Of a DNA stretch of 64,000 nt, positions 18,972 to 61,966 are shown one piece after another (within the stretch, counting starts at the first letter, position 1; the number at the start of each line of letters is the position of its first letter). Source of the stretch: Okeania sp. KiyG1 (GTDB taxonomy: Bacteria; Cyanobacteriota; Cyanobacteriia; Cyanobacteriales; Microcoleaceae); NCBI RefSeq assembly GCF_014132355.1, contig NZ_BLZO01000058.1, forward strand, positions 186,001 through 250,000, read 5' to 3'. The translations under genes and the position numbers were made by a program. The notes below the pieces were generated by a model. The model saw nothing but the letters and a program-made list of their open reading frames with translations, had not been told where the DNA came from and made no database searches.

Positions 18972-19122
18972 TTACCGAATAATTAATAATTATTAGTTGT
19001 TAATTAAATAATTCAGCTTACTCTGCCTCCCCTTTCAAGGGGAAAAAAAGTGCTAGGATGTTTCCTTATATTCAATCAAGAATGGTTTTAACCAAAGGTA
19101 ATTATCCATTATCCATTAATGA
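18972..19122 (+). repeat. Hairpin-heptamer composite element C1
   Basis: TTAC + CGAATAATT, hairpin CCTCCCCTTTCAAGGGG, ATTCAATC, a short GGTTTTAACC hairpin, AAAGGTAATTATCCATTATCC ending in the heptamer TTATCCA. Same architecture as 36750-36905. The 228 bases before it (18744-18971) are AT-rich with no gene. Confidence 0.75.
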
Positions 19123-19183
19123 ATATACATCCGTAGTTTTGTTTTTATTCTACATTTTGCTCTACCTAATATTCTAAATTTAT

Positions 19184-19398
19184 CAAAATAACATGGGTCG
19201 CGCAACCCCGCCTTTTAAGGCGAAATATTTTTGGAGGCTTGCTCAAATTCCCGTTACAAAAATAACTTCTGACTGTGGTGAAGTGTGTCTTACATTCTGG
19301 AGGGCTGTGTGCGGAATTACTTCCGCACAGTAGGCGCCCCGTAGGGGACCTCAGAATTACACACTCGCTTCTGACTTCTGACTTCTGACTTCGTTAAC
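19184..19398 (+). repeat. Family F repeat: hairpin plus (ACTTCTG)n tail, with an inserted TTCCGCAC palindrome
   Basis: ATCAAAATAACATGGGTCG, hairpin CGCCTTTTAAGGCG, ATATTTTTGGAGGCTTGCTC, CGTTACAAAAATAACTTCTG, then after about 90 foreign bp (TGTGCGGAATTACTTCCGCACA palindrome) the ACTTCTG heptamers and CGTTAA. Other copies: 28588-28708, 39159-39290 and 54024-54165. Copy 28588 lacks the foreign piece, which marks it as an insert. Confidence 0.72.
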
Positions 19399-19457
19399 CC
19401 TCGTACTTTTGATTTATTCTGATTTCTTACTTATTACTTTTTTCTCTTTTTGATCGA

Positions 19458-19775
19458 ATGGCTATTATCGAATTCGTAATACTTACAGGATTAGGGGTTA
19501 TATTAGGTGCATTTATTTTTAATCTATCTAATGATAAACAACAAAAGCGTATTTTAGATTATGCTTTTTACAGGTTACTAGAGCTGCAAAATGGTAAAAT
19601 TTCTTTGATTCAATTAGCTGCTGCTGCTAAAGTTGATGCTCAAATAGCTCAGAAATATCTTGAACGTCAAGTAGAAGTATTCACCGCAACTTTAGAAGTT
19701 GATGAACAAGGAGATACATTCTACAGATTTCCTAAACTAAGTTTACCTTCTGTTTTAGATCAACAACAATGGTAA
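19458..19775 (+). CDS. Conserved hypothetical small membrane protein
   Basis: A 105-residue protein: an N-terminal transmembrane segment (IIEFVILTGLGVILGAFIFNL, residues 3-23), then a soluble part with a winged-helix-like pattern (YRLLELQNGKISLIQLAAAAKVDAQIAQKYLERQ) and a final strand TFYRFP. The layout suggests a membrane-tethered small domain resembling DNA-binding HTH folds. I do not recognise a named family. ATG start; it stands alone. Confidence 0.75.
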   Translation: MAIIEFVILTGLGVILGAFIFNLSNDKQQKRILDYAFYRLLELQNGKISLIQLAAAAKVDAQIAQKYLERQVEVFTATLEVDEQGDTFYRFPKLSLPSVLDQQQW

Positions 19776-19924
19776 TAAATTAGGTTTGAAGTGTTATTTT
19801 TGAGGTTCGATCACAAGTGTCAAATAAATAATTTTACAAATAATTTGAGTAATTAAAAGATTTTCATTCGTTATGTCTTTTTGACTGAAAATAGAGATTA
19901 CCCTCATAAATTTTGAAATACTAT

Positions 19925-20057
19925 TTACCGAAAAATTGTGGTTTAAAGCCTCCCCTTTTAAAGGGATAAAAAGAAAAATTTTCCTTTTAGTCAATCCTCT
20001 TCTTTAAAAGGAAAGAATTGTTAATTAATAATTATTAATTATTAATTATTAATTGTT
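19925..20057 (+). repeat. Hairpin-heptamer composite element C3
   Basis: TTAC + CGAAAAATTGTGGTTT, AAAG, hairpin CCTCCCCTTTTAAAGGG, about 35 nt, TAGTCAATCC, hairpin CTTCTTTAAAAGGAAAG, then (AATTATT)n. It lies downstream of and convergent with lepB. Confidence 0.82.
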
Positions 20058-20069
20058 GAACCCTACTCC

Positions 20070-20672
20070 CTAATTAATTAATTGTCCAAATCTTGGATAA
20101 GGCCAAAAGCGAAATATTGCCCTACCTATAATATTTTTCTTAGGCAAAAAACCCCAAACATGAGAGTCATTACTATTATTACGATTATCTCCCATCACAA
20201 AGTATTGATTGTTAGGAACTTCGACTGAAATTGGCAAAGTATATTCAGGAGGTTCAGCAATATAATTTTCAGTCAGCGGTTGGTCATTTATATACACTAG
20301 ACCATTCTCAATTCTAATAGTATCTCCTGGCAGGCCAATAACTCTTTTGATAAAAGCTTGATTTTTAGCATAACCATAGCGCTGTAACTGTTGGGGTGGT
20401 TGAAAAACAATAATATCCCCTGCTACTGGTGGATGAAAATAATAAGATACTTTTTCTACTACCAGGCGATCGCCTACCTCTAAAGTAGGTATCATTGAGT
20501 CTGAAGGTATATATCTTGGTTCTGCAATAAATACTCTGACTAATAAAGATAAAGATAAAGCGATCGCCAAAACTTTAATATTTTCTTTTTGTTGTTGCCA
20601 TATTTTTAACCACCAGGGAGTTGTTGAATTGTCTGTTATTTGTTGATTTAAGGATTCTTTTTCTGATGTCAT
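20070..20672 (-). CDS. lepB: Signal peptidase I
   Basis: Membrane-bound serine/lysine protease that removes signal peptides from exported proteins. At 200 residues it has one N-terminal transmembrane segment (VLAIALSLSLLVRVFIA, about 34-50). The catalytic Ser59 is in PSDSMIPTL, the catalytic Lys109 in FIKRVIGLPGD, and the family's closing motifs are MGDNRNNSNDSHVWG and IIGRAIFRFWP. Single transmembrane topology is typical of cyanobacterial and Gram-positive forms. ATG start. Two HIP1 sites are inside. It stands alone between repeats. Confidence 0.97.
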   Translation of the reverse strand: MTSEKESLNQQITDNSTTPWWLKIWQQQKENIKVLAIALSLSLLVRVFIAEPRYIPSDSMIPTLEVGDRLVVEKVSYYFHPPVAGDIIVFQPPQQLQRYGYAKNQAFIKRVIGLPGDTIRIENGLVYINDQPLTENYIAEPPEYTLPISVEVPNNQYFVMGDNRNNSNDSHVWGFLPKKNIIGRAIFRFWPYPRFGQLIN

Positions 20673-20751
20673 TTCTATGATTTTATTCTTGAGTATTTCT
20701 ATTTTATAGTAAAACTCCTGGGAATGAGCATTTATTTATTCTAAATATATA

Positions 20752-21152
20752 TAGCAATCCTATTTCAGTTGCGGGTCATTTCAGTTATCAGTTATCAGTT
20801 ATCAGTTAGCCTCCTATGGTCGGAGCTACGCTATCAGTACCTCCTGCAATAAGGAGGCTTGAAATACGGATTTTTTTCCTTTTTTATCCCCTTAAAAGGG
20901 AAGGCGCATACCCACAATTTATCGGTAAAAATATCTTTGAATTTAGGAAACAAGGAATAGGCTTCAACAATGAATAATGAATAATGAATAATGAATAATT
21001 ACCTCTCCTTGAAAAGAAGAGGATTGACTAATAATGAAATTTTTATTTATTATCCCCTTAAAAGGGGAGGCTTTAAACCACAATTTTTCGGTAAAAGTTT
21101 CAGAGTTTTTATATATCCTGAAATTTTTTATAAATGATTTTTGATTGCTATA
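20752..21152. repeat. TATAGCAATC-ended element carrying two nested hairpin-heptamer composites (C4, C5)
   Basis: Outer ends are TATAGCAATCCTATTTCAG and GATTTTTGATTGCTATA. Inside, 20773-20938 (minus strand) is composite C4: TTAC, hairpin CCTTCCCTTTTAAGGGG, TTTCAAG, hairpin CCTCCTTATTGCAGGAGG, heptamers (ACTGATA)n ending AAATGACC. 20968-21094 (minus strand) is C5: TTAC, hairpin CCTCCCCTTTTAAGGGG, TAGTCAATCC, hairpin, (ATTCATT)n. The stretch 21153-21487 is AT-rich and may contain the promoter of the RloA-like gene. Confidence 0.75.
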
Positions 21153-21487
21153 GCACTATAATTTTTCCCTACTAGACTGTTTCAGCTAAAATAGTGCTTT
21201 AGATTTGTTATTACAACTAGAAGAAGTTATCTCTTAAAAATTTACTATTGCAAAATTTAAGATGAAACAGTTCACTACTATATACAATACACATATTAAA
21301 ATTGTATATGTAATCTGAAAGATTAAAATATTGGCTATATACTTTCTCCCTTTTCAGGAGGGGGTTATGTGAGATATTCCGTAGCGGTAATTATTCTATT
21401 TAATATAAAGTAATCATCAATAGTATAATTAGTGTAAATTTGTAATTTTTTCACAAATTTACCACTCGACCTATTCTTTATAATTCT

Positions 21488-22770
21488 ATACTGATTCAAT
21501 TCAGTGTTGGTAACTATTTATCTTTTGAAAAAATTGTCACTTTGAGTATGGTGGCTACAGATGTGACTGCAAATAATCAAAATATTGATGAAAATAATAT
21601 TTTTCAAGTTGATGATGAATTAAATTTGCTGAAAAGTTGTGCTGTTTATGGCGCGAATGCTAGTGGCAAAAGTAATTTGGTTAAAGCATTAGATTTTATG
21701 CGTCTGTTTGTGCTTAATTCTTCAAAAGAAACTCAGATAGAAGATGCTATTAATGTAGAGGAATTTAGATTAAATACGGAGACACAAGGAAAACCTTCTT
21801 TTTTGAAATAGTTTTTATTTTAGACCATAAATTATATAAGTATGGTTTTGAAGTCGATAACAAACAAGTGGTTTCTGAATGGTTATTTTATTTACCAAAA
21901 GTTAGGGAGACTAGACTATTTGAACGTGATGAAAATGGCATTAAGATGACCAAGGTTTTTAAAGAAGGAGAATTAATTGCTGATAAGACAAGAAATAATG
22001 CACTTTTTCTTTCTGTCAATGGTCAATTTAATGGCAAAATCTCTACAAGTATTTTGCGGTGGTTTATGAATTTGAATGTAATTTCAGGATTGCATAGCGA
22101 TTTTTATCAACAAGTAACAGTTGAATATTTTAAAGATAGTAAATACAAAAATGAAATTATTCAATTAATTAAGGAATGGGATTTAGGTATTGATGATATT
22201 AAAATTGAGACCAAAAAGGTTTTACAAGAACAGTTACCTAATTTTATTTCAGAGGAATTTAGAAAAGTCATGCTAGATTATGGAGCACTAACTTATGATA
22301 TTCAAAGTTTTCATAAGAAGTATAACTCTGAAGGAAAAATGGAATCTTTAGAAGTATTTGATTTTGAGAAAAATGAGTCAGAAGGAACTAAAAAATTGTT
22401 TGCTTTTGCCGTGCCAATTTTGGATACTTTAAAAAATGGAGAAATTTTAATAATTGATGAACTTGACGCTAGGTTACATCCAATCATCACTCGCACAATT
22501 ATTGATTTATTTAACTCTAATAAAACGAATCCTAAAAACGCCCAATTAATTTTTACGACTCACGACACTAACTTACTTAGTAATAAGATTTTTAGACGAG
22601 ACTAAATATGGTTTACAGAAAAAAATCGGCAGGGATCGACTGATTTATATTCTTTAGTTGAATACAAAGTACCGAATGATGCGACTTTTGAAAGTGATTA
22701 TATTAAGGGTAAATATGGAGCCATACCTTTTCTGGGGAATTTAACTGAATTATTTGAGAAAAATGGCTAA
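21488..22770 (+). pseudogene. RloA-like AAA-type ATPase of an RloAB/abortive-infection pair (decayed)
   Basis: The protein is a P-loop ATPase of the OLD/RloA type: Walker A GANASGKSN, Walker B ILIIDELDARLHP, switch histidine TTHDTNLL. The conserved beginning FSVGNYLSFEKIVTLS is encoded from about 21497, but the expected ATG reads ATA at 21488. The frame breaks at a run of six T (21799-21804), where one more T would continue as FFEIVFILDHKLYKYGFEVDNK. A TAA at 22603 stands where CAA would give the same frame (..FRRD(Q)IWFTEKNRQG). The last codons overlap the RloB start by 8 bp (ATGGCTAA). Defence by RloAB is inferred from relatives; at least three lesions argue it is inactive as read. Confidence 0.85.
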
Positions 22771-23444
22771 ACAAAAAGCATCTAAGAAAAATTATAAAAA
22801 TTCCCGTAAAAGTAAATATAGTCATTATTCAAGAAATGAAACAGTAGCAATACGAGAAGTTATTGAGCGTTTTTTGATAGTTTGTGAGGGAGAAGAAACG
22901 GAACCAAATTATTTGCGGAGTTTTCGTGTGCCTAAAGATGTGATTGATGTACGAGGATTGGGTGAAGAACCCAGCAAACTTGTTAAAGAACCAATAAAAA
23001 TTAGAGATAAGGAAGATAATAATGATCTAGTTTGGTGTGTATTTGACAACTGATAACTGATAACTGATAACTGATAACTGAAATGACCGTGATTCATTTC
23101 CGGTAAAAAATTTTAATCAAGCTATAAAAGATGCTGAAAATAATAATATTAAAGTTGCTTATTCAAATGAAGCATTTGAAATTTGGTATTTGTTACATTT
23201 TGAATATCGAGATACCGCCATGTCTCGCAAAGAATATAAAAAAGCTTTGACTGAGAAGCTAAATCAAGAATATGAGAAAAATAGTAAGAAAATGTATGAA
23301 ATCTTGAAAAATAAGCAACCTCAAGCAATTAAAAATGCTGAGAAGTTGTTAGAGCAATATAATCCACCTAATCCTGTTAATGATAATCCTTCCACAACTG
23401 TACATTTATTGGTTAAACAACTTAATAAATTTGTTCGTCCATAG
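22763..23444 (+). pseudogene. RloB-like protein split by a 40-bp heptamer-repeat insert
   Basis: The N-terminal part reads a basic start (MAKQKASKKNYKNSRKSKYS) then RFLIVCEGEETEPNYLRSF and VWCVFD, the start of the Toprim-like RloB domain. After the insert (23048-23087) it resumes in a different frame with RDSFPVKNFNQAIKDAENN, VAYSNEAFEIWYLLHFEY, and the C-terminus ending KQLNKFVRP. Removing the 40 bp restores a single frame of about 213 codons. It is translationally coupled to the ATPase by an ATGGCTAA overlap. RloB partners OLD/RloA-type ATPases in restriction-linked or abortive-infection loci. Confidence 0.87.
23048..23087 (-). repeat. Heptamer-tail insertion in rloB
   Basis: Inserted sequence: AACTGATAACTGATAACTGA (first part) ... 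ending ACTGAAATGAC, flanked by the 4-bp direct repeat TGAC. It equals the distal tail of the composite elements at 20773, 27211, 42611 and 61546, which end AAATGAC(C). Only the tail is here, not the hairpins. Confidence 0.88.
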
Positions 23445-23489
23445 ATGGGAAAGTAAGCACCTGGGCAAAAATTATAGCAGTTTTGACTA

Positions 23490-25237
23490 ATGACTATTGC
23501 CACATCCGCACTAAAAAGAGGAAGTAGATATTTTCCTACTACAGACTCTCTAGTTATGCGCTTCACAAAATGATTGACTATTGCCACATCCGCAACTAAA
23601 AAGAGGAAGTAGATATTTTCCTACTACAGACTCTCTAGTTATGCGCTTCACAAAATGATTTGACTATTGCCACATCCGCAACTAAAAAGAGGAAGTAGAT
23701 ATTTTCCTACTACAGACTCTCTAGTTATGCGCTTCACAAAATGATTGACTATTGCCACATCCGCAACTAAAAGAGGAAGTAGATATTTTCCTACTACAGA
23801 CTCTCTAGTTATGCGCTTCACAAAATGATTGACTATTGCCACATCCGCAACTAAAAAGAGGAAGTAGATATTTTCCTACTACAGACTCTCTAGTTATGCG
23901 CTTCACAAAATGATTGACTATTGCCACATCCGTAACTAAAGAGAGGAAGTAGATATTTTCCTATTACACACTCTCAAGTTATGCGCTTCACAAAATGATT
24001 TGACTATTGCCACATCCGCAACTAAAAAGAGGAAGTAGATATTTTCCTACTACAGACTCTCTAGTTATGCGCTTCACAAAATGATTTGACTGTTGTGACA
24101 TCCGTAATAGAGAGAGAGAGTAGATATTTTCCTACTACAGACTCTCAAGTTATGCGCTTCACAAAATGATTAACTATTGCGGATGTGGCAATAGAGGGGA
24201 GGTAGATATTTTCCTACTACAGACTCTCAAGTTATGCGCTTCATAAAATGATTTGACGATTGCCACATCCGCAACTAAAGAGAGGAAGTAGATATTTTCC
24301 TATTACACACTCTCAAGTTATGCGCTTCATAAAATGATTTGACGATTGCCACATCCGCAACTAAAGAGAGGAAGTAGATATTTTCCTATTACACACTCTC
24401 AAGTTATGCGCTTCATAAAATGATTTGACGATTGCCACATCCGCAACTAAAAAGAGGAAGTAGATATTTTCCTATTACACACTCTCAAGTTATGTGCTTC
24501 ACAAAATGATTGACTATTGCCACATCCGCAACTAAAAAGAGGAAGTAGATATTTTCCTATTACACACTCTCAAGTTATGAGCTTCACAAAATGATTGACT
24601 ATTGCCACATCCGCAACTAAAGAGAGGAAGTAGATATTTTCCTACTACAGACTCTCTAGTTATGCGCTTCACAAAATGATTTGACTGTTGTGACATCCGT
24701 AATAGAGAGAGAGAGTAGATATTTTCCTACTACAGACTCTCAAGTTATGCGCTTCACAAAATGATTAACTATTGCGGATGTGGCAATAGAGGGGAGGTAG
24801 ATATTTTCCTACTACAGACTCTCAAGTTATGCGCTTCATAAAATGATTTGACGATTGCCACATCCGCAACTAAAGAGAGGAAGTAGATATTTTCCTATTA
24901 CACACTCTCAAGTTATGCGCTTCATAAAATGATTTGACGATTGCCACATCCGCAACTAAAGAGAGGAAGTAGATATTTTCCTATTACACACTCTCAAGTT
25001 ATGCGCTTCATAAAATGATTTGACGATTGCCACATCCGCAACTAAAAAGAGGAAGTAGATATTTTCCTATTACACACTCTCAAGTTATGTGCTTCACAAA
25101 ATGATTGACGATTGCCACATCCGCAACTAAAAAGAGGAAGTAGATATTTTCCTATTACACACTCTCAAGTTATGAGCTTCACAAAATGATTGACTATTGC
25201 CACATCCGCAACTAAAGAGAGGAAGTAGATATTTTCC
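23490..25237. repeat. Tandem array TR2: about 21 copies of an ~85-bp unit, with a 595-bp duplication
   Basis: Unit: ATTGCCACATCCGCAACTAA, AGAGGAAGTAGATATTTTCC, TACTACAGACTCTC, TATGCGCTTCACAAAATGATT. Early unit starts at 23496, 23580, 23666, 23751, 23835, 23920 (spacing 84-86). A marked unit with TGTTGTGACATCCG recurs at 24091 and 24686, so seven units (595 bp) were duplicated as a block. Two units (about 24175 and 24770) have the 15-bp core inverted, TTGCGGATGTGGCAA instead of TTGCCACATCCGCAA. Minus-strand frames in the array are repeats of noise, not genes. Confidence 0.93.
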
Positions 25238-25287
25238 CTCCACATTATCCGTATTATTTATTATTCAAAAATTTTTCTAACTTTAAT

Positions 25288-26514: not shown

Positions 26515-26545
26515 ATTGAAGTAGTTCTATAGATGTAGTTATTTA

Positions 26546-27210: not shown

Positions 27211-27364
27211 GGTTATTTCAGTTATCAGTTAGCCCCATAAGGTCGGAACTGCGGACTTCAGTTATCAGTTATAAGTACCTCTGTAATCAGGAGGCTTGAC
27301 ATAAGGAATAGTCTGTTTTTTATCCCTTTAAAAAGGGAGGCGCATACCCACAATTTTTCGGTAA
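27211..27364 (-). repeat. Hairpin-heptamer composite element C6
   Basis: On the minus strand: TTAC + CGAAAAATTGTGGGTATG, hairpin CCTCCCTTTTTAAAGGG, GTCAAG, hairpin CCTCCTGATTACAGAGG, (ACTGATA)n, AAATAACC. It truncates the carbonic anhydrase relic. 27365-27556 holds nothing recognisable. Confidence 0.8.
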
Positions 27365-29814: not shown

Positions 29815-31690
29815 ACAAACTCATACTTACTTTTGCTTTACCTCCTAAAAAAACTTCAAAAGAGAATTTGCTATTTACGGATTTTCCCCTTTGACCATCA
29901 AAAAATCTTCAGAGGAACTTATACTTACCCTTGCTTTAGCTCCTGAAAAAATTGGCAGTTAGGTAAAATCTGAGAAACCCAATGATGGAAAATTTACTAC
30001 TCCTGAATTTTCCCCTCCGACTATCAAAAAATCTTCAGAGAAACTCATACTTACTCTTGCTTTAGCTCCTGAAAAAATTTGCACAAGTAAAAATCTGAGA
30101 AACCCAATTATGGAAAATGTACTACTCCTGAATTTTCCCCTCCGACTATCAAAAAATCTTCAGAGAAACTCATACTTACTCTTGCTTTAGCTCCTGAAAA
30201 AATTGGCAGTTAGGCAAAATCTGAGAAACCCAATGATGAAAAATGTACTACTCCTGAATTTTCCCCTCCGACTATCAAAAAATCTTCAGAGAAACTCATA
30301 CTTACTCTTGCTTTAGCTCCTGAAAAAATTGGCAGTTAGGCAAAATTTGAAAAACCCAATGATGGAAAATTTACTACTCCTGAATTTTCCCCTCCGACTA
30401 TCAAAAAATCTTCAGAGAAACTCATACTTACTCTTGCTTTAGCTCCTGAAAAAATTGGCAGTTAGGCAAAATCTGAGAAACCCAATGATGAAAAATGTAC
30501 TACTCCTGAATTTTCCCCTCCGACTATCAAAAAATCCTAAGATTCACCTATACTTACCCTAAATTTATCTCCTAAAAAAATTGGCAGTTAGGCAAAATCT
30601 GAGAAACCCAATGATGAAAAATGTACTACTCCTGAATTTTCCCCTCCGACTATCAAAAATCCTAAGATTCACCTATACTTACCCTAAATTTATCTCCTAA
30701 AAAAATTGGCAGTTAGGCAAAATCTGAGAAACCCAATGATGAAAAATGTACTACTCCTGAATTTTCCCCTCCGACTATCAAAAAATCCTAAGATTCACCT
30801 ATACTTACCCTAAATTTATCTCCTAAAAAAATTGGCAGTTAGGCAAAATCTGAGAAACCCAATGATGAAAAATGTACTACTCCTGAATTTTCCCCTCCGA
30901 CTATCAAAAAATCTTCAGAGTCACCTGTACTTACCCTAACTTTAGCTTCAGAAAAAATTGGCAGTTAGGCAAAATCTGAAAAACCCAATGATGGAAAATG
31001 CACTACTTCTGAATTTTCCTCTCCGACCATCAAAAAAGTTCTAGAGGAACTCATACTTACTCTTGCTTTATCCCCTAAAAAAAATGGCAGTTAGGCAAAA
31101 TCTGAGAAACCCAATGATGAAAAATTTACTGCTCCTGAAATTTCCCCTCTAACCATCAAAAAATTTTCAGACTCACCTATACTTACTCTTACTTTATCCT
31201 CTAAAAAAATTGGCAGTTAGGCAAAATCTGAGAAACCCACTGATGGAAAATGTACTATTTCCAGATTTTCCCCTCTGACCATCAAAAAATTTCCAGAGTA
31301 ACCCATATTTAATCTTGCTTTCTCTTCAGAAAAAATCAGAAAAAATTTGTACAAGCCAAAATCTGAGAAACCGACTGATAGAAAATTTACTACTTCTGAA
31401 TTTTCCCTTCTGACCATCAAAAAATCTTCAGAGAAACTCATACTTACTCTGACTTTATCCCCTGAAAAAATTTGCACCAGCCAAAATTTGAGAAACCGAC
31501 TGATAGAAAATTTACGATTTCTAGATTTTCTCCTTGAAACGTCAAAAAAATTCCAGAGGAACCCATACTTATTCTAGTTTTACCGTTAAAAAATTTCCCA
31601 CAAAGCAAAATTTAATAAATCTGCTAATAGATAATTTAGTAGTCAGGATTTTCAGCTTTGATAATCAACTAAAATCCTAGACTACAAACT
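29815..31690. repeat. Tandem array TR3: about 14-15 copies of a 126-bp unit
   Basis: Landmark AACCCAATGATG recurs at about 29978, 30103, 30229, 30355, 30481, 30607, 30732, 30858, 30984, 31110, 31236, then diverged units near 31371 and 31496. Spacing is 125-126. Unit content: ATACTTACTCTTGCTTTAGC, TCCTGAAAAAATTGGCAGTT, TTTTCCCCTCCGACTATCAA. The 3' units are the most diverged. The minus strand of each unit reads ..GFSDF then a stop in most copies; 126 is 42 codons, but no copy set keeps an open frame. The array lies between an unknown gene and mnmA. Confidence 0.93.
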
Positions 31691-32835: not shown

Positions 32836-34754
32836 AGAAGGAAGAAGGAAAAAGGAAGAGGGAAGAGGGAAGAGGGAAGAGAGAAAAATATTACTTTCTC
32901 TGAGTTTTAAGTTCTCGATATTTCCTCATCTTTCCTTCCACTGCTATATATGAGACTGCACAGAATGATGAAATTTCTTAATTTGTCTGTCTTAATTTCA
33001 AGTCAGGAAGAAAGAAGAAGGAACAAGGAAGAGGGAAGAGAGAAAAATATTACTTTCTCTGAGTTTTAAGTTCTCGATATTTCCTCATCTTTCCTTCCAC
33101 TGCTATATATGAGACTGCACAGAATGATGAAATTTCTTAATTTGTCTGTCTTAATTTCAAGTCAGGAAGAAAGAAGAAGGAACAAGGAAAAGGGAAGCAG
33201 GAAAAATATTACTTTCTCTGAGTTTTAAGTTCTCGATATTTCCTCATCTTTCCTTCCACTGCTATATATGAGACTGCACAGAATGATGAAATTTCTTAAT
33301 TTGTCTGTCTTAATTTCAAGTCAGGAAGAAAGAAGAAGGAACAAGGAAGAGGGAAGAGAGAAAAATATTACTTTCTCTGAGTTTTAAGTTCTCGATATTT
33401 CCTCATCTTTCCTTCCACTGCTATATATGAGACTGCACAGAATGATGAAATTTCTTAATTTGTCTGTCTTAATTTCAAGTCAGGAAGAAAGAAGAAGGAA
33501 CAAGGAAAAGGGAAGCAGGAAAAATATTACTTTCTCTGAGTTTTAAGTTCTCGATATTTCCTCATCTTTCCTTCCACTGCTATATATGAGACTGCACAGA
33601 ATGATGAAATTTCTTAATTTGTCTGTCTTAATTTCAAGTCAGGAAGAAAGAAGAAGGAACAAGGAAAAGGGAAGCAGGAAAAATATTACTTTCTCTGAGT
33701 TTTAAGTTCTCGATATTTCCTCATCTTTCCTTCCACTGCTATATATGAGACTGCACAGAATGATGAAATTTCTTAATTTGTCTGTCTTAATTTCAAGTCA
33801 GGAAGAAAGAAGAAGGAACAAGGAAAAGGGAAGCAGGAAAAATATTACTTTCTCTGAGTTTTAAGTTCTCGATATTTCCTCATCTTTCCTTCCACTGCTA
33901 TATATGAGACTGCACAGAATGATGAAATTTCTTAATTTGTCTGTCTTAATTTCAAGTCAGGAAGAAAGAAGAAGGAACAAGGAAAAGGGAAGCAGGAAAA
34001 ATATTACTTTCTCTGAGTTTTAAGTTCTCGATATTTCCTCATCTTTCCTTCCACTGCTATATATGAGACTGCACAGAATGATGAAATTTCTTAATTTGTC
34101 TGTCTTAATTTCAAGTCAGGAAGAAAGAAGAAGGAACAAGGAAAAGGGAAGCAGGAAAAATATTACTTTCTCTGAGTTTTAAGTTCTCGATATTTCCTCA
34201 TCTTTCCTTCCACTGCTATATATGAGACTGCACAGAATGATGAAATTTCTTAATTTGTCTGTCTTAATTTCAAGTCAGGAAGAAAGAAGAAGGAACAAGG
34301 AAAAGGGAAGCAGGAAAAATATTACTTTCTCTGAGTTTTAAGTTCTCGATATTTCCTCATCTTTCCTTCCACTGCTATATATGAGACTGCACAGAATGAT
34401 GAAATTTCTTAATTTGTCTGTCTTAATTTCAAGTCAGGAAGAAAGAAGAAGGAACAAGGAAAAGGGAAGCAGGAAAAATATTACTTTCTCTGAGTTTTAA
34501 GTTCTCGATATTTCCTCATCTTTCCTTCCACTGCTATATATGAGACTGCACAGAATGATGAAATTTCTTAATTTGTCTGTCTTAATTTCAAGTCAGGAAG
34601 AAAGAAGAAGGAACAAGGAAAAGGGAAGCAGGAAAAATATTACTTTCTCTGAGTTTTAAGTTCTCGATATTTCCTCATCTTTCCTTCCACTGCTATATAT
34701 GAGACTGCACGGAATGATGAAATTTCTTAATTTGTCTGTCTTAATTTCAAGTCA
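32836..34754. repeat. Tandem array TR4: 12 copies of a 159-bp unit, nearly identical
   Basis: Landmark GACTGCACAGAATGATG at 32954, 33113, 33272, 33431, 33590, 33749, then every 159 bp to 34703: exactly eleven periods. Two variants differ in the purine tract: GGAAGAGGGAAGAGAG (early) and GGAAAAGGGAAGCAGG (all later copies), in the order A, A, B, A, B, then B throughout. Each unit joins an M1-like piece (ending CTTCCACTGCTATATA) to a 60-bp piece (GACTGCACAG..TTTCAAGTCAGG) found singly at 60395 and 62930. Such homogeneity implies recent unequal crossover or amplification. Confidence 0.95.
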
Positions 34755-36034: not shown

Positions 36035-36154
36035 AGTCAGTAATTTCAGTTATCAGTTATCAGTACCTCCTGTAATAAGGAGGCTTGAAATCTGGAATAT
36101 TCTCTTTTTTTATTCCCTTAAAAGGGCAGGGTATTGACCAAAAAAATTCGGGAA
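36035..36154 (-). repeat. Hairpin-heptamer composite element C7 (degenerate left end)
   Basis: (ACTGATA)n, hairpin CCTCCTTATTACAGGAGG, a second hairpin CCCTTTTAAGGG, and TTCCCGAATTTTTTTGG in place of TTACCGAA. Confidence 0.72.
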
Positions 36155-36749: not shown

Positions 36750-36905
36750 TTACCGAATAATTAATCATTAATTATTATTAATTAAATAATTCAGCTAATT
36801 CCGCCTCCCCTTTCAAGGGAAAATAAAGAAATAATATTTCCTTATATTCAATTCCGTAACGGTTAAAACCCGAGGTAATTATCCATTATCCATTATCCAT
36901 TAATG
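36750..36905 (+). repeat. Hairpin-heptamer composite element C12
   Basis: TTAC + CGAATAATTAATC, hairpin CCTCCCCTTTCAAGGG, ATTCAATTCC, GGTTAAAACCC, GGTAATTATCCATTATCC and TTATCCA heptamers. Twin of 18972-19122. From here to 37107 a 70-bp piece (AGTGAATTAAATTAGAATAA) occurs twice (36918 and 37075). Confidence 0.78.
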
Positions 36906-37107
36906 AACTTTCCTTTTTCTAGTGAATTAAATTAGAATAATAGATCAGTAAAAATGCGTCTTAACTTAGAAGTAGCTGATAAGATTGGAGAATCTACTTA
37001 TCTCTATTATTATTTTTGTTTTTTATTCCAACTTCAGTTATTCCCTCTTTCTTAGCTTTACTTTTTTATAGTGAAGAGAATTAAATTAGAATAATAGATC
37101 GACAAAA

Positions 37108-42610: not shown

Positions 42611-42730
42611 AGTCATTTCAGTTATCAGTTATCAGTTATCAGTACCTCTGCGATAAGAAGACAATAAAATACGGAATATTCTTTTTTTATCCTCTTAAAA
42701 GAGAAGACTTCAGACCAAAATTTTTCGGTG
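42611..42730 (-). repeat. Hairpin-heptamer composite element C8 (degenerate left end)
   Basis: Plus strand: AGTCATTTCAG, (TTATCAG)n, CCTCTGCGATAAGAAG, CCTCTTAAAAGAG hairpin, ..AAAATTTTTCGGTGAA, i.e. TTCACCGAAAAATTTT on the minus strand. Confidence 0.72.
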
Positions 42731-44610: not shown

Positions 44611-45612
44611 TTAGGGCGTGGCTGATTAAATATCAAAGCACTATTCAATAAAGATTTAAAGGATTTGAGGTACTGAAAAAGTACCAGCTTTTAGGTTGAT
44701 GGATCTCAAAAAGTGAGAACTTTGGGATAATGATGATAGAAAAATTAAGGGTAATTATGAATGACCACTTCTTCTACAACTCCCCGCTTATCCTAACTCT
44801 TAACTACTCCCTACTCCCTACTCCCTACTCCCTACCTTAACAAAAAGACTTTTGATAGAGTCGATGGGGGGATTTCGCCCCCTCACCTCTCCTTCAGAAC
44901 CGTACATGAGAGTTTCCAGCTCATACGGCTCCTGGTACTAGATAAATGTTTCAGGTTTCGCCGTTCATACTACTTGATGCCACGCTTGCTATAGCTGCGT
45001 TCTCGTCATTGTAAGTAGTTTCAACTTAGGCTAATGCCTCTAGTACCGTCCCACGTCTGCGTATCCCAGCTATTAGGTTGGGATGAGTGCTTCTTGAGAC
45101 ATCCTTAATCCTTGAGCCTTCTGGCTTTCGCTTTACCTACCTTCAAACGGAGGAGAACTCAAGGGGTTACTTCGTTCCCACAATCCTTTTCACGTCTGTT
45201 TTAGGACTCCTAAATCTGCCGGGTTCTACCAGGAACGTCCTGAGTCATGCTGAAATACTCAGGGGCAAACAAACCGTACCGTTTTGGTTTCAGGGGATTT
45301 AAGGACAATTACCCTGATCTAGGGTTACGACAGTTTCATAGGATTCGTATTCCTATCCATGACAGACTCCTCTAGCAGCTTCGGCTACAGTCCTTATAGC
45401 CTTGGCTTACATTTAGGCCATGCACCGAGAGTAATGAGCGCTACCTCATTAAACCTGACCTACGAAGTCACTCCCGTTCCCAAGAGGAGAGGAATTTAAC
45501 CTAATTACGAGATGTGAGTTATCATCCCTGATGATTATTAATCATTCGAGAGATGTGAACCATGTTGCCTAGTGGCTTCTTTGGTTCAACGAGTCGCACT
45601 CAGCAAGCCCTA
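44611..45612 (-). repeat. M2 MITE containing a group II intron
   Basis: One end TTAGGGCGTGGCTGATTAAA at 44611, the other CAGCAAGCCCTAA at about 45612. On the minus strand TTAGGGCTTGCTGA joins AAAAGTCTTTTTG across the intron at 44855-45599, as in the uninterrupted TTTGCTGAAAAAGTCTT at 8637. The rest of 44371-44610 and 45613-45740 is AT-rich and featureless. Confidence 0.82.
44855..45599 (-). ncRNA. Group II intron without ORF
   Basis: On the minus strand the 5' end is GTGCGACTCG, the group II intron 5' consensus. Domain V is at about 44905-44939: GAGCCGTATGAGC, a GGAAAC loop, CATGTACGGTTC, with the AGC/GTT catalytic pairing. Domain VI follows (GGGGGCGAAATCCCCCC) and the 3' end is ..GACTCTAT. 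About 745 nt long with no reverse transcriptase, so mobility and perhaps splicing need an enzyme from elsewhere. The 3' boundary may be off by one or two bases. Confidence 0.88.
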
Positions 45613-53148: not shown

Positions 53149-53369
53149 AAAAAAAAATCCTTTGATCCAATCCTCTTAATTTATAAGAAGAGGTAATTCT
53201 AAATTCTTAATTCTAAATTCTAAATTCTTATAGAGCTATTACTTTACCGAAAAATTCAGGTATAAAGCTTCTCCATTCATGGAGAAAAATAAAAAAATCC
53301 TTTGATCCAATCCTCTTAATTTATAAGAAGAGGTAATTCTAAATTCTAAATTCTTAATTCTAAATTCTT
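53149..53369 (+). repeat. Hairpin-heptamer composite element C9, with its 3' half duplicated upstream
   Basis: Full copy from TTAC at 53244: CGAAAAATTCAGGTAT, AAAG, hairpin CTTCTCCATTCATGGAG, about 30 nt, CCAATCC, hairpin CTCTTAATTTATAAGAAGAG, GTAATTCTAAATTCT heptamers. The segment from AAAAAAATCCTTTGATCCAA to the heptamers occurs also at 53149-53230. Confidence 0.82.
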
Positions 53370-53467
53370 GAAGAATATTCTCTCTTCAAAGATAAAGATT
53401 TCCTAGCCGTATATATAAAATATTGATAAAGTTTTAGTTAAGAGATTTTCAAGTTAGAGGAAATTTT

Positions 53468-57066: not shown

Positions 57067-57197
57067 TGACCAATAGAAAATATTTGGAGAAAAGAATGAG
57101 TTATTGAGATTAAAATCATTAGTTATGTAAAGCAAATTCAGAATTCTCTACTCAGAATTCTGAATCGCTGTTATGGAATAAGTGAGGTGAAGTGCAG

Positions 57198-57713
57198 ATG
57201 GAAGTAATACATATTCCCAGTCTACTGAAAAAAACTGAGCAGACTGAGGCTATTAAGTTTGAGGAATTTATATCAGACTTGGAAACACTGACTCCAGTTA
57301 GGGGGTATTTACAAGTAACTCATCATGGAAATTATCTGGAAGTTAAAGGAAAAGTAGAAACAATTATTACTCTCACTTGTGACAGATGTTTAAACCAGTA
57401 CAACCATAAGTTATTGATTAATCCAAAAGAATTAATTTGGCTGAAAGAAGTTAAAGAACAAAAAGATTTATTTTATCTAGAAGTAGAAAACTCTGTGGAA
57501 GATTTGGTAGAAACTTTACCCCCAGATGGATATTTTAACCCTAAAGAATGGATATATGAACAGTTTTGTTTGGCAGTTCCTCCTAGAAAGTTATGCGATA
57601 AAAATTGTCAGGGAATTAAATTATCCGATACAAATGGCTCCTCATCAATTATAGACCGGCGATGGGCTGGTTTAGAATCTATTAAAAAACAACTGAATAT
57701 AAATAATAATTGA
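57198..57713 (+). CDS. YceD/DUF177 family protein (large ribosomal RNA accumulation protein type)
   Basis: With ATG at 57198 (GAGGTG seven nt upstream; a GTG two codons earlier is also possible) the protein has 171 residues. Seen: GYLQVTHHGNYLEVKGKVETIITLTCDRCLNQYNH with the CxxC pair, and a C-terminal CLAVPPRKLCDKNCQGI with two more cysteines, suggesting a zinc site. Family members are linked to 23S rRNA/rpmF expression. Here it follows jag by 130 bp. Confidence 0.88.
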   Translation: MEVIHIPSLLKKTEQTEAIKFEEFISDLETLTPVRGYLQVTHHGNYLEVKGKVETIITLTCDRCLNQYNHKLLINPKELIWLKEVKEQKDLFYLEVENSVEDLVETLPPDGYFNPKEWIYEQFCLAVPPRKLCDKNCQGIKLSDTNGSSSIIDRRWAGLESIKKQLNINNN

Positions 57714-57736
57714 GATTTTGATCGGAAAGTTAGCTG

Positions 57737-57867
57737 TTAATAATTAATAATTAATAATTAATAATTAATAATCACCTCTTCTTTATCAAGGATAGGATTG
57801 ACTCAAAGGAAAATGTTTGCTTGTTTATCCTTTAAAGGAGAGGCTTTAAACCTTAATTATTCGGTAA
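57737..57867 (-). repeat. Hairpin-heptamer composite element C10
   Basis: Minus strand: TTAC + CGAATAATTAAGGTTT, AAAG, hairpin CCTCTCCTTTAAAGGA, GAGTCAATCC, hairpin, then (AATTATT)n. Confidence 0.8.
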
Positions 57868-57885
57868 ATTGGATATTGAATTAAT

Positions 57886-58183
57886 TAGGGTTTGCTGATT
57901 AAATATCAAAGCATTGACTGATATTGGTTGTAGCCTTTTTTGATCTAAAAAAGTGCACCTGTTTTCAGTGGCAAGAGCTGCAAAAAGCTAGTATTTTGGG
58001 AGGATTATGGCAGACAAATCAAGGGACAATTTTTCCGACTACCTCCTCTATAATTCCCATTTCTCCTATCTCCTGTCTCCTGTCTTCCCCTCCCCTCCTG
58101 GGAGGGGCTAGGGGTGGGTTGGGAGGGGCTAGGGGTGGGTTGTCTCCTACCCTCACCTATAAGACTTTTTCAGCAAACCCTAA
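57886..58183. repeat. M2 MITE with duplicated GC-rich palindrome
   Basis: TAGGGTTTGCTGATTAAATA ... GACTTTTTCAGCAAACCCTA. Inside, GGGAGGGGCTAGGGGTGGGT occurs twice in tandem at 58100-58141. Confidence 0.87.
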
Positions 58184-58239
58184 TTATAGAATTATCAACA
58201 TATACTATATAACTGGATTCTATATAACAAAAAAATCTT

Positions 58240-59738
58240 ATGAGTTTTCAAGAAGAGTTTGAACTGCTATTACGCTCGCGCTATTCAATAATTTATATTC
58301 AGACAAGGGAAGAAGAACGAGTAGAAATTACAATTACTGAATCAGCAAAAAAACAAGGTAATAGAGCAGTTTATATATGGGATTTTGTTGAAGGATATCA
58401 AAATAATCCTAATGATACAGGTTGGGGAAAAAGAAATCCTCTCCAAGGTTTAGAGCTTGTGGAAAAGTTGCCAGAATCTGCTCCGGCAATCTTTATTTTG
58501 CGTGATTTTCAAAGATTTTGGAAGATATTTCTATTTCGAGAAAACTACGAAATTTGGCAAAGAAATTAAAATCTCAACCTAAAAATATAGTTATTCTTGC
58601 TCCTCAAATATCTGTTCCAGAAGATTTAACTGAAGTTATTACAATCATAGAATTCCCACTGCCAAATAGTCAAGAAATTGCTCAAGAGGTAGAACGTTTA
58701 TTAGTGGCAATGGGTCAATCTTTAGATAAACGTTTATTAGATGAAGTAGTTCGAGCAGCTCAAGGATTATCTATTGAAAGAATTAGAAGAGTTTTGGCTA
58801 AAGCTATTGCTACTCACGGAGAATTACAGCTTAATGATGTTGATTTAATATTAGAAGAAAAACGTCAAACTATCCGCCAAACTCAAATATTAGATTTCTA
58901 TCCTGCTCGTGAAAATATTTCTGATATTGGGGGTTTAGATAACCTTAAAGATTGGTTATTGCGACGGGGAGGAGCATTTTCTGAACGAGCGAGACAATAT
59001 GGTTTACCTCATCCGAGAGGTTTACTTTTGGTAGGAATACAAGGTACTGGTAAGTCTCTTACTGCTAAGGCGATCGCTCATCATTGGCATTTACCTCTAT
59101 TACGTTTGGATGTGGGACGTTTGTTTGGAGGGTTGGTGGGAGAGTCGGAGTCTCGTACCCGACAGATGATTTCTATTGCGGAAGCTTTAGCGCCTTGTGT
59201 TGTGTGGATAGATGAAATTGATAAGGGTTTTGCAGGGTTGAAAAGTCAAGGAGATGCTGGTACTACGAGTCGCGTTTTTGGTACTTTTATTACTTGGTTA
59301 GCTGAGAAAAAATCTCCTGTATTTGTGGTAGCTACTGCTAATAATATTCAATCTTTACCTCCTGAGATATTACGAAAAGGGAGGTTTGATGAAATATTTT
59401 TTGTTGGTTTGCCTAACCAGGAAGAAAGAACAGCTATTTTTGAGGTACATTTATCTCGGTTAAGACCTCACAATATCAAAAATTATGATATAAATCGTCT
59501 AGCTTATGAAACTCCTGATTTTTCTGGTGCAGAAATAGAACAATCTTTAATTGAAGCTATGCACATTGGATTTAGTCAAAATCGTGAGTTTACTACTGAG
59601 GATATTTTAGAGTCTGCTAGTCAAATTATACCTTTAGCTAGAACTGCAGAGGAACAAATTAAGTTTTTACAAGATTGGGCAGCAGCAGGTAAAGCACGTC
59701 TTGCTTCTAGATATGGTGGCTTAAAAGGTAATTTTTAG
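58240..59738 (+). pseudogene. ycf46: Ycf46-like AAA ATPase (one apparent frameshift)
   Basis: The first frame (58240-58569) carries the N-terminal region MSFQEEFELLLRSRYSIIYI and ends prematurely; the second (used from about 58520) has the rest: SDIGGLDNLKDWLLRR, Walker A GIQGTGKS, GGLVGESESRTRQMI, Walker B CVVWIDEIDKGFAG, the arginine-finger region ILRKGRFDEIFFVGLP. Adding one T at 58516-58519 joins them as ..FILRDFQRFLEDISISRK... The family is conserved in cyanobacteria and plastids; some members are linked to CO2 response. The gene otherwise looks intact and its position after yceD is normal. Confidence 0.88.
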
Positions 59739-59742
59739 TTTA

Positions 59743-59853
59743 GTAGAAGGAAGAAGGAAGAAGGAAGAAGGAAGAAGGAAGAAAGAAGTAGGAAGAAGGA
59801 AGAAGGAAGAAGGAAGAAGGAAGAAGGAAGAAGGAAGAAGGAAGAAGAAGGTA
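59743..59853 (+). repeat. Heptamer repeat (GAAGGAA)n
   Basis: About 15 copies of GAAGGAA immediately after the ATPase gene. Confidence 0.95.
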
Positions 59854-59908
59854 ATTATACTAAATTGATGAATGTGTCCTACAAATAACTTTCTAGGTGT
59901 TATACCAT

Positions 59909-60375
59909 TGACATCTCCAGGGGTTGAAACACCCTGGATTCTGTAGTAAATCTACCGCAAATGGGACGGGGCGAATAAATGTGCGGAATTTACTTCCGCA
60001 CGCAGCCCCTCATAAATCCACATTTGCTTAAGCCTGAAGGGCAGACTCCTAAACTCCTCGGCTTAGACCGAAATCTAGCTGTGAGTTTACTTTTTTTTAT
60101 TAGCTTTCACGAGTGGTTTTACTCGCACTGGTTGGAGCAATCTTCTCGCTGCTTTAGCTGCCTGCTTACTTTTCCTGCGGAATGCGCTCGCATTCAGCCG
60201 TCGTAGGAAATCAAGTCCCCGTCTCCTGTCCGCCGGAATTTCACCGCAAAGCACGGTCATGTCATGGCGACAAACCTTGTTCCTTATTCCTCTAGTATAC
60301 CAGGCTTTTCTCCGGGTTGAAACCCGCGTGTCGTTATTCAACCAGGGGATAAATCTTCCGGGAACTTTCCTCCCG
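59909..60375 (-). mobile_element. IS608-like PATE, large family D (no clear protein)
   Basis: Minus strand: left hairpin CGGGTTTCAACCCG within GGTTGAATAACGACACG..; right end GAAT + CCAGGGTGTTTCAACCCCTGG + AGATGTCAA at 59909. The 350-bp middle is GC-richer than its surroundings and holds several palindromes (GAATGCGAGCGCATTC, GCGGAAGTAAATTCCGC). A minus-strand 84-codon Arg-rich frame (60087-60341) is probably a by-product of structured RNA or DNA; no known protein is recognised. Confidence 0.62.
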
Positions 60376-60394
60376 TTATTTTTTTAGGTTTTAT

Positions 60395-60497
60395 ATGAAG
60401 TTGCATAGAATGATGAAATTTATTAAATCTATCTATCCTTATCTAAGCTTACCTGTGGTCAATTATGCTTTAAATATTATTCTGTGCAGCTTCATTT
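60395..60497. repeat. GAAGTTGCATAGAAT-ended MITE
   Basis: ATGAAGTTGCATAGAATGAT and ATTCTGTGCAGCTTCAT are inverted ends. The left half matches part of the TR4 unit (ATGATGAAATTT..), and one end recurs at 62930. Confidence 0.72.
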
Positions 60498-60532
60498 CAA
60501 TTTGGTATTAGGTTTTAGGTGTTAGATGCTAG

Positions 60533-60772
60533 TTGACATCCTCCCCGGCCTAAAGGCACGGGGATTCCTACTGAGTCATAGCTCCTCGGCGGGTTGACAC
60601 TTCACAGGGTGCTGCTTCCTTGGCGGTAGTCTAACGCTTCCCTCCACGTCCGTTTAGAGTTTCCGAGTGCCCCCCGGCAACTAATAACACTATAGCATAT
60701 ATTCAATTCACTTAACATAAAAATAAAAAGTCGCCCTACAAGGGCGAGGCTTTAAACCCAATTTTTCGGTAA
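60533..60772 (-). mobile_element. IS608-like solo element with guide-RNA-like end, family A copy 2
   Basis: The reverse complement of 13372-13611, almost identical over 240 bp including both hairpins, TTAC and TCAA ends, and the guide-RNA-like segment. It has no protein. Near identity of two distant copies indicates recent movement. Confidence 0.88.
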
Positions 60773-60785
60773 ATTGGAAATATTT

Positions 60786-61050
60786 GGCGTTGGTAATTTG
60801 AGGTATGATATCATGTCCCGATAAGAGTGCGATAGAAGTCCGTTCCGCGTTCCGCGTTAAGGTGCGTTGTGCGCCAGCAAACAAAAACTTTCTCCTTCTA
60901 CTCCTGTTCTTTCTTCTTTCTTCCCTCCTGACTAGGTCTTCCTGACTTCCCCTCCCCTCCTGGGAGGGGCTAGGGGTGGGTTGGGAGGGTTAGGGGTGGG
61001 TAGACTCCTGAGTAATTAAGATTAATATTATACACTAATTCACCAACGCC
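60786..61050. mobile_element. GGCGTTGGT-ended MITE, 7 of 8 bp target duplication
   Basis: Ends GGCGTTGGTAATTTGAGGTA and TACACTAATTCACCAACGCC; flanks AAATATTT and TAATATTT. The interior includes GTTCCGCGTTCCGCGTTAAG and a GC-rich palindrome pair at 60948-61000. Confidence 0.82.
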
Positions 61051-61070
61051 TAATATTTTATGAAATTGGT

Positions 61071-61508
61071 ATGAAAATTATGAATTTTTATAGCTTATTC
61101 AAATTTTTAGTGGGGTTTATTTTAGCAATATTATTGTTGGCTGGTGCTAGTGCAGCAGCAGTTCTCTACTTTGCTGCAAAACTAACGAGAATGCCTGAAA
61201 AACCAATATTTACTAATGAAAAACCTATCGCCCAAAAAGTGAGTACGTCTTCTCCTGGAGCTACAAATACAAATTTATCTAATCAATTAGATCCTGGAGC
61301 TTACAGAGCTATTGTAGTTGAGCCTATTGGTTTGATTTTGCGGGATACTCCTAGTAGAGATGCTAATCGTATTGGTGGTATTTCTTATCAAGAGAAAGTT
61401 ATAGTTTTGGAAGAAAGTTCAGATAAAAGATGGCAAAAGGTTAGAGTGGATGATGGGAGTAATCGTACAGGATGGGTATCAGGTGGTAATACTGAAAAAT
61501 TGGAGTAA
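61071..61508 (+). CDS. Membrane-anchored bacterial SH3 domain protein
   Basis: A 145-residue protein: a transmembrane anchor near the start (FLVGFILAILLLAGASAAAVLYFA), a short linker, then an SH3-type domain: YRAIVVEPIGLILRDTPSRDANRIGGISYQEKVIVLEES and WQKVRVDDGSNRTGWVSGGN (read in parts). Such domains often bind peptidoglycan. ATG at 61071; a second at 61080 is possible. Confidence 0.85.
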   Translation: MKIMNFYSLFKFLVGFILAILLLAGASAAAVLYFAAKLTRMPEKPIFTNEKPIAQKVSTSSPGATNTNLSNQLDPGAYRAIVVEPIGLILRDTPSRDANRIGGISYQEKVIVLEESSDKRWQKVRVDDGSNRTGWVSGGNTEKLE

Positions 61509-61545
61509 TAATATCATGTCCGATAGCATTAGTATTGTCAGCTAA

Positions 61546-61966
61546 GGGTCATTTCAGTTATCAGTTATCAGTTATCAGTTATCATTACCTCTAGCTGTTT
61601 TGTTTGCGCAGCATGACCTAGGAAAGCAAAGTGAATTGAAACACGGAATTCTCTTTTTTTTTATCCCCTTAAAACCCACATTCCGCACTTCAATTTGTAA
61701 GATGAAAATTAGTATAAAATCCGTAGCTTGCTTAGGTATTTATACTATATAAATTATCTTCATTTACCTCGATCAGGAGTCAAATTCTCAGTGAAATCTT
61801 AAGCATAAATACTTACTGAATCCTTTACTCCTATTGACCACTATAATTTTCTTCTTACTTCTTACTTCTTACTTCTTAATGCATGACTTTTGACTTTTGA
61901 CTTATGTTTTTTATGCTACATTTTGTGGTGTGGAATGTGGGTGCTTTAGACCACAATTTTTCGGTA
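61546..61966 (-). repeat. Composite element C11 split by an IS1634-derived MITE
   Basis: Composite parts: AGGGTCATTTCAG, (TTATCAG)n at 61551-61585, ..TTTTATCCCCTTAAAA to 61674; then TGCTTTAGACCACAATTTTTC and GGTAA at 61942-61966. Between them is 61675-61941: CCCACATTCCGCACTTCAAT at the left and TTTTGTGGTGTGGAATGTGG plus G at the right. The latter ends match the IS fragment at 49353. The insertion falls in the composite's left hairpin. Confidence 0.82.

Follow-up and report, generated by a model that had tools for sequence, protein, structure and literature searches.

Heptamer tails that appear to travel inside IS608-like hairpin elements of Okeania

Perfect tandem heptanucleotide repeats, presumably the sequences known as short tandemly repeated repetitive (STRR) sequences, are dispersed through cyanobacterial genomes, and we know of no mechanism that accounts for them. 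The question of how such repeats come to lie where they do is raised by a 64,000-nt stretch of Okeania sp. KiyG1 (bases 186001-250000 of contig C58, NZ_BLZO01000058.1; G+C 36%), referred to here as the window, in which pairs of hairpins resembling those of the transposon IS608 run into tails of perfect 7-bp repeats. An initial annotation had listed eleven copies of this arrangement and ascribed one shared plan to them; all eleven are present in the window sequence (Table 1), and the plan was borne out by a side-by-side reading of 78 copies, apart from some that are truncated, interrupted or of the tnpB type described below. From the sequence comparisons that follow we conclude, at a probability of about 85%, that the copies are non-autonomous IS608-like elements (IS200/IS605) with a right linker expanded by heptamers, and that the tail is carried along with them. 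The comparisons involve the genome of KiyG1 itself (G000, 10.98 Mb) and those of Okeania sp. SIO3B5 (G001), SIO2B3 (G002), O. hirsuta (G003) and Okeania sp. SIO2C9 (G004), SIO1I7 (G005) and SIO3I5 (G017).

With a caret marking the junction between insert and flank, the overall layout is TTAC^CGAAAAATT…AAAG-left hairpin … CAAT-right hairpin-(heptamer)n-TGAA^, the ACTGATA subfamily having CAAG … TGAC^ in its right half. The common left part of the copies reads TTAC^CGA(A/T)(A/T)AATT..GGTTT, AAAG and the left hairpin CC-TCCCC TTTT GGGGA; after a spacer come (T)CAAT-CCTC…GAGG as the right hairpin, TAATT(heptamer)n … TGAA^ and unique flanking DNA or, in the ACTGATA subfamily, (T)CAAG-CCTCC…GAGG-TACTGAT(AACTGAT)nAACTGAAATGAC^. 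Both ends have a subterminal hairpin, and a tetranucleotide guide stands on the 5' side of each. In a DNA fold of one copy the right hairpin scored z -4.06, a value matched by 1 of 200 shuffles, and CAAT directly precedes its base. Uninterrupted copies in the window measure 116-154 nt, the decayed copy at 36040-36150 aside. Target and left guide are 15-16 nt apart in 83 of the 119 left ends parsed (misparses make up a part of the rest), and a separate left-end subtype has a heptamer-expanded left linker of its own (39, 46, 53 or 38, 45 nt). Right linkers were measured from the hairpin foot to TGAA in 167 seven-periodic cases, in which orthologs and paralogs are counted singly and are not independent. 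An exact multiple of seven was found in 106 of them (14-49 nt, with 35 nt commonest at 62, plus one row of 56 nt), a length of 7k+3 in 54 and other lengths in 7; the row of 56 nt and those of 59 and 65 nt seem to be artefacts. Printed 7k+3 examples of 17, 24, 31, 38 and 52 nt are ACTGATA tails measured to an internal TGAA, those of 45 and 59 nt are not ACTGATA, and in the TGAA subfamilies the tail is a whole number of heptads, about 14-49 nt. As a separate matter, a palindromic sequence, GCGGTCG … GACCAAGAG, stands between the two hairpins at a similar place in many copies (L030, L052, L097, L098, L107 and others), as though the hairpin element were the target or the carrier of another small element.

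Whether the tail belongs to the element can be read from a comparison of occupied and empty flanks between G000 and its relatives, the check that the initial annotation had itself named as able to separate tails from hairpins. Exact empty sites were obtained for ten independent full-length insertions, and for an eleventh the empty sites carry TTAT (4 insertions in the window and 7 in relatives). The resolved insertions lie exactly 3' of a short fixed target, starting directly after TTAC (once TCAC) and ending in TGAA or TGAC, with precise empty sites and no target duplication. The heptamers are inside the inserted piece in 11 of 11 resolved full-length filled/empty pairs, and in these pairs, then, the tails are not independent of the hairpins. 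For the copy at 36754 the empty site reads TTAC^CTTTCC in G004 and G005; for that at 20963 it reads TTAC^CCCTAT in G002, G003, G004 and G005, and in G001 an element of a different subfamily is inserted at the same TTAC, one of the seven insertions resolved in relatives. The copy at 20775 is matched by TTAC^CAGCAACC in G002, the printed segments of G003, G004 and G005 being identical there, and that at 42612 by TCAC^TTAATT in G001, with G003 and G004 lacking the element and reading TTGA. Among insertions in the relatives, G002:C177 copy 46032 is empty in G003 and absent, with altered flanks, from G000 and G004; the copies at stretch positions 7080 and 22376 of G004:C24 are empty in G003, and copy 2736 of G005:C34 is empty in G002; an element of G004 (L171) has its empty counterpart in G003 (L158), and it is G004:C24 29233 for which G002 and G003 show TTAT. 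No flush pair was obtained for the window copies first listed at 18972 and 27211, for G002 copy 19798 or for G005 copy 34333, all with rearranged or altered flanks, and no clean empty site for those at 19925 and 36035 (filled in relatives) or for 53244, 57737 and 61546, whose flanks were not found among the loci fetched. The heptamer tract thus lies within the element, between its right hairpin and its right cleavage site. The earlier view of the tail as a part of the element held in this sense; its coupling to hairpins is not general, since the ACTGATA tail also occurs without them and unlinked heptamer arrays are common in the own genome.

Once in place the tails vary in length. The tail at 36754 has three units in the window as against two in G002, and the ortholog of the copy first listed at 36035 has a longer tail in G002 and a shorter one in G005. 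Element-free arrays of AGAAGGA (28089) and TAGGGAA (28280) vary in the relatives too. An extreme expansion was seen at L169 (G000:C33:46364), where an (AACTGAT)n array measures 182 nt as compared with 28 nt in three relatives.

The ends also carry what look like the guides of this transposon family. In IS608 the first guide base pairs with the third-last base of the cleavage site, the second with the fourth-last and the fourth with the last, a rule that fits both guide/site pairs of that element. The pairs that dominate here are AAAG/TTAC, GAAT/TCAA, CAAT/TGAA and CAAG/TGAC, and judged by their bases they appear to obey the same logic, with single copies often deviating. The TCAA noted in the initial annotation before the second hairpin turned out to be (T)CAA(T/G), the right guide and not the cleavage site; the actual right cleavage site is the TGAA or TGAC after the heptamers. 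GAAT/TCAA was found in 13 of 13 tnpB-type right ends located by their hairpin pattern, CAAG/TGAC in 15 of 33 ACTGATA-family right ends, and CAAT/TGAA in 51 of 100 parsed rows of other families once the guide column may be moved by one base; this last table includes misparsed and doubled rows and some elements twice, and its guide column is shifted in many rows. An automatic guide/site count for the TGAA families was set aside, its pattern stopping inside the array (TAAT). At copy 42612, a single case, the guide GAAG stands with TCAC as the pairing rule asks.

A canonical-looking relative lies in the same window. It is a tnpB-type element with a broken tnpB frame, presumably IS1341-like, accompanied by two 236-bp derivatives, and the heptamer elements have the left end in common with it and differ at the right end, where its linker is 6 nt without heptamers as compared with 14-49 nt. 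The Y1_Tnp profile (PF01797) gave 24 matches in G000, 4 of them above 100 bits and without stops, and 94 in G001-G005 and G017. We inspected 54 tnpA loci (24 of 24 in G000 and 30 of the 94 in relatives, some cut by contig ends), scanning for the left end only and additionally reading through those loci with a left end nearby. Four candidates for an autonomous partner (L005, L023, L246 and L251) fell away, the element standing beside the tnpA match and not around it, as did L252, where a tnpB-type left end and an ACTGATA element lie upstream of a broken tnpA without enclosing it. At L246 (G004:C277) and L251 (G005:C30) the element tail abuts the end of a tnpA-like gene and the following sequence is AGTTCCTTTTGAATGATG-like in both, an arrangement that probably goes back to one old insertion shared by the two species.

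Copies were counted with a degenerate pattern of the left end, one that takes in the left end of the tnpB-type element as well. It matched 363 times in G000 and the reversed pattern not once; the relatives gave 266 (G001), 194 (G002), 122 (G003), 484 (G004), 191 (G005) and 127 (G017) matches, and farther out there were 38 in G012, 5 in G011 and 1 each in G015 and G027, with none in the remaining 19 of the 30 genomes searched. In a class-wide draw of 388 genomes that left out G001-G005 and G017, the left end was present in 8, and, the own genome aside, each of these 7 others has one or two copies, of the form GGGT(T/A)TAAAGC seen on the tnpB-type element. Since matches are few outside Okeania-type genomes, the expansion in copy number is assigned, within the genomes searched, to Okeania and its near kin.

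Taken together, these features suggest a mechanism in which a Y1 (HUH) transposase, TnpA, would presumably move the elements in trans as single strands. Pairing would join the left guide AAAG to the target TTAC and, at the right end, the guide CAAT or CAAG to the cleavage site TGAA or TGAC; the heptamer tract would be an expanded linker, looped out in the transpososome and copied and moved with the element, its unit number changing afterwards by slippage or by alternative cleavage within the array. Several observations weigh against this interpretation. No tnpA was found between matching ends in the 54 inspected loci. The right linker, at 14-49 nt, greatly exceeds the 6 nt found in the tnpB-type element, and we know of no structural precedent for it. 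Pairing is weak per copy in the ACTGATA family, where guide base 1 is complementary in 19 of 33 and base 4 in 26 of 33. The left-end variant GGGTATGCGCC, which has GTATGCG instead of TTTAAAG and is thus without AAAG, stands behind TTAC in 13 of 14 cases, and the other printed GAAG left ends are at TTAC, which they fit only by G-T wobble. The left hairpin region of the folded copy scored a modest z -1.34 and the whole copy z -1.95. Decay after insertion may explain a part of the guide/site mismatches.

Quite a different history would follow if a short miniature inverted-repeat transposable element (MITE) ended at the right hairpin and inserted beside or into pre-existing STRR arrays. Element-free arrays are common: in 450 kb of the own genome (~4%), a left end lies 70-420 nt upstream of only 37 of 170 arrays. 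The elements account for a minority of heptamer arrays, and those of AATAGGG, AAGAAGG, ACTCCCT and AACAGGG are not accounted for by the hairpin element. Yet the empty sites of all the resolved pairs are without a heptamer array, so that the tail was gained with the hairpins, and TGAA/TGAC closes 51 of the 86 family-unit arrays (six units) in the orientation of the element as against 2 on the opposite strand (11 of 168 strand-wise tests of other units). This history is refuted for the resolved copies and hardly credible in general. A strict hairpin-stem test at array starts had given no signal (2/86 family, 1/84 other, 57/3000 random) and a looser one, at its lowest threshold, a modest enrichment (26/86 family, 11/84 other, 85/800 random); the sequence hallmarks adopted after these two tests, hairpin foot plus TGAA/TGAC, occur together in 36 of the 170 arrays, that is, 36 of the 86 of family units, with 1/86 on the opposite strand and 0/168 in strand-wise tests of other units as controls. 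The small, palindromic and numerous copies, together with the presence of Y1-type transposase genes, also bring to mind repetitive extragenic palindromic (REP) elements and their REPIN forms, moved by TnpA-REP. We consider this very improbable in view of the two unlike ends, the TTAC target, the precise empty sites and the guides, which are AAAG, CAAT and CAAG here and not the GTAG given for REPs in the accessible text of PMC8266576.

The reading as IS608-like elements with an internal tail leaves one class of sequences to be considered apart, in that the (AACTGAT)n tail also occurs without hairpins, flush after a genomic TGAC, its own cleavage tetranucleotide. A search for TGAC plus array gave 60 exact matches in seven genomes, 19 of them in the own genome, the array end having 954 occurrences overall. 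Among 32 tail-only entries examined, orthologs and tandem copies included, four had clean empty sites with both flanks complete and only the tail gained, and at all four the right junction is the cleavage tetranucleotide. At window position 23048 the empty counterparts in G001, G002, G004 and G005 read TTTGACCGTG; the reading frame across the site, which we take to be RloB-like, is open in G002, G004 and G005 and broken by the insert in the window, so that the filled site is most simply taken as derived (no frame above 150 codons was returned for G001 there). L145 is empty in G000, G001 and G003, with TGAG instead of TGAC in G002 and G005; eight paralogous empty sites are listed for L166; C58:153566 has four, and its insert begins with the variant unit AACTGAC. 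Other entries were set aside: L163 is contradictory, its relatives reading TTAC and not TGAC, one L161 copy arose by deletion, the relatives carry shorter arrays at L169 and one of them is rearranged at L156, and all others were self-matches, filled or otherwise uninformative sites, or returned no row. TGAC was built into the search pattern, and the unbiased evidence is therefore smaller. Among 16 arrays in long sampled stretches three are clearly hairpin-less, all 3 after TGAC, and a fourth (C91:22690) resembles a decayed right end. Of 30 arrays fetched without the TGAC condition, 2 are flush after TGAC (one multiplied locus), at least 2 (L264, L272) are hairpin-less without TGAC, and L267, L278 and L287 are ambiguous. 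In two more of the 30 (L261, L274) a foreign left flank meets the array at a TGAC which other copies have inside the hairpin loop. No empty site was found for the flanks of the hairpin-poor arrays L261, L264, L272, L274 and L278. Six tail-only matches of TGAA-family arrays came to three altered hairpins, one array beside others and two at one duplicated locus (C58:142802/142977), and tail-only movement is therefore claimed for ACTGATA only.

These data agree with a reaction of the transposase between right ends as well as with template switching at TGAC. In the former, which we put forward tentatively and at rather less than even odds, the tails would themselves be mobile units: two right-end complexes with guide CAAG would cut at TGAC and at its look-alike TGAT, present every seven bases, and paste the tail behind TGAC, with repeat number shifting by seven. 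That TnpA moves the full elements and that the tail-only arrays come from replication template switching at TGAC/TGAT microhomology, or from loss of the left part, seems to us close to an even bet. Microhomology would equally give TGAC at both junctions, and one locus does look like loss: the full element of G004 (L171) lies 20 nt from a TGAC, G003 (L158) has no insert, and G005 (L161) has the tail directly abutting the upstream TGAC, the 20 nt and the hairpins being gone. Speaking against it are the four other sites, where complete flanks gained only a tail (23048 being empty in four relatives) and where the right junction is the cleavage tetranucleotide.

Two further observations concern the tail-only arrays. 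The right end GAAATGAC supplies an ATG, from which frames of 136, 187, at least 208 and 346 codons run at 4 of 8 such arrays (L145, L147, L264, L272), the ATG frame being only 5-15 codons at the other 4 (L148, L150, L166, L168). Stretches of ~100-550 bp with a tail-only array have been multiplied locally at G002:C1:209788-210642 (L146) and G005:C22:70024-70257 (L161).

Table 1. Hairpin elements, tnpB-type relatives and a tail-only insertion in the window (a caret marks a junction)
Feature	Position	Strand	Remarks
tnpB-type 236-bp derivative (TCAA)	13376..13611	+	G001 TTAC^CAACTCATTC, window flank CACCTCATTC
tnpB-type element	14620..15977	+	left end TTAC^CGAAAAATTGGGTTTAAAG + hairpin; GAAT, hairpin, AGGATG, TCAA; tnpB frame broken
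Element, ATTATCC tail	18976..19123	+	target TTAC; right end TTAATGAA; long left linker; no clean empty site
Element, AATTATT tail	19929..20060	+	right end TTGTTGAA; related copies fill site in G001, G002, G005
Element, ACTGATA tail	20775..20924	-	guide CAAG; right end TGAC; empty site known
Element, ATTCATT tail	20963..21090	-	guide CAAT; right end TTGAA; empty site known
Tail-only insertion, no hairpin	23048..23087	+	TTTGAC^(AACTGAT)4AACTGAAATGAC^CGTG; empty in G001, G002, G004, G005
Element, ACTGATA tail	27212..27360	-	right end TAAC; no clean empty site
Element, decayed left end, ACTGATA tail	36040..36150	-	right end TTAC; filled in relatives
Element, ATTATCC tail, 3 units	36754..36907	+	right end TTAATGAA; empty site known
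Element, ACTGATA tail	42612..42727	-	target TCAC; left guide GAAG; right end TGAC; empty site known
Element, AAATTCT tail	53248..53372	+	right end TTCTTGAA; orthologous flank not found in fetched loci
Element, AATTATT tail	~57734..57863	-	no recognisable TGAA/right cleavage site, right end approximate; flank not found in fetched loci
tnpB-type 236-bp derivative, second copy	60533..60768	-	ends as tnpB-type element
Element, ACTGATA tail at right end	61548..61963	-	268-nt insertion inside; flank not found in fetched loci

The outer coordinate first given for the last of these copies (listed at 61546) arose because a 268-nt insertion (61675-61942) interrupts the element; the ends of that insertion resemble an inverted repeat (ACCCACATTCC / GGAATGTGGG). 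Elsewhere in the window there is a group II intron match (Rfam RF00029) at 44855-44933 on the reverse strand, and large tandem repeats occupy 414-3128, 23491-25237, 29881-31582 and 32846-34754, with units of ~133/494, 86, 126 and 159 bp, respectively, in up to 20 copies.

One of the closest known systems is IS608 of Helicobacter pylori, which, in the accessible text of PMC5934647, keeps TTAC at its left and has a guide on the 5' side of each hairpin: AAAG at the left, pairing with TTAC, and GAAT at the right, pairing with the right cleavage site TCAA. IS608 prefers C after TTAC, and the elements here start with C (PMC5934647). They differ from it in lacking tnpA and tnpB, in using CAAT/TGAA or CAAG/TGAC instead of GAAT/TCAA, and in the long heptamer right linker. 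The tnpB-type element has the left end and hairpin in common with them and differs by GAAT, by AGGATG and TCAA, by the absence of heptamers and by its broken tnpB. The palindrome-associated transposable elements (PATEs) of Haloquadratum walsbyi were the closest elements found in the literature. They likewise have no transposase, share palindromes near their termini with IS605-type elements, duplicate no target and are inserted in a strain-specific manner, and core-deleted versions consisting only of ends occur (PMC3119063). The elements here have no transposase gene, palindromes near the termini and no target duplication, and, as to a possible PATE-like origin by core deletion, the left end is shared with the tnpB-type element and the right end differs. 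Tandem heptamers are not described for PATEs in the accessible part of PMC3119063, and a supplementary legend there describes a greater palindrome distance for the 5' end; in the elements of Okeania it is often the 3' linker that exceeds the other. With STRR sequences the tails have in common perfect, dispersed tandem heptamers of several units and variable number, and they differ in that the subset described here is internal to a mobile element with defined ends. Calothrix PCC 7601 has three tandemly repetitive heptanucleotides, and the accessible text that cites them states that a detailed literature on heptameric repeats is lacking (PMC4692102). In the open-licence literature (titles and abstract starts, most subscription papers lying outside) we found no IS200/IS605 element with tandem heptamers between hairpin and cleavage site, and the accessible part of PMC4369082 has nothing on heptamer-tailed elements of this kind.

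Exact boundaries and empty sites here place a defined subset of heptamer repeats in the end of a transposon, and the spread of this subset thereby becomes testable. The compact geometry known from the IS608 transpososome would be challenged by a long and variable linker that separates hairpin and cleavage site, and four guide/site pairs on related elements would be a natural counterpart of the engineered programmability of IS608. It is the tail-only insertions that could exceed a mere variant of IS608-like elements: if made by a transposase, insertions of the tail alone at its own cleavage tetranucleotide would be a new class of product, and if the tails are mobile, a part of the heptamer repeats of cyanobacteria would have a transposase-made origin, with natural guide-programmed targeting.

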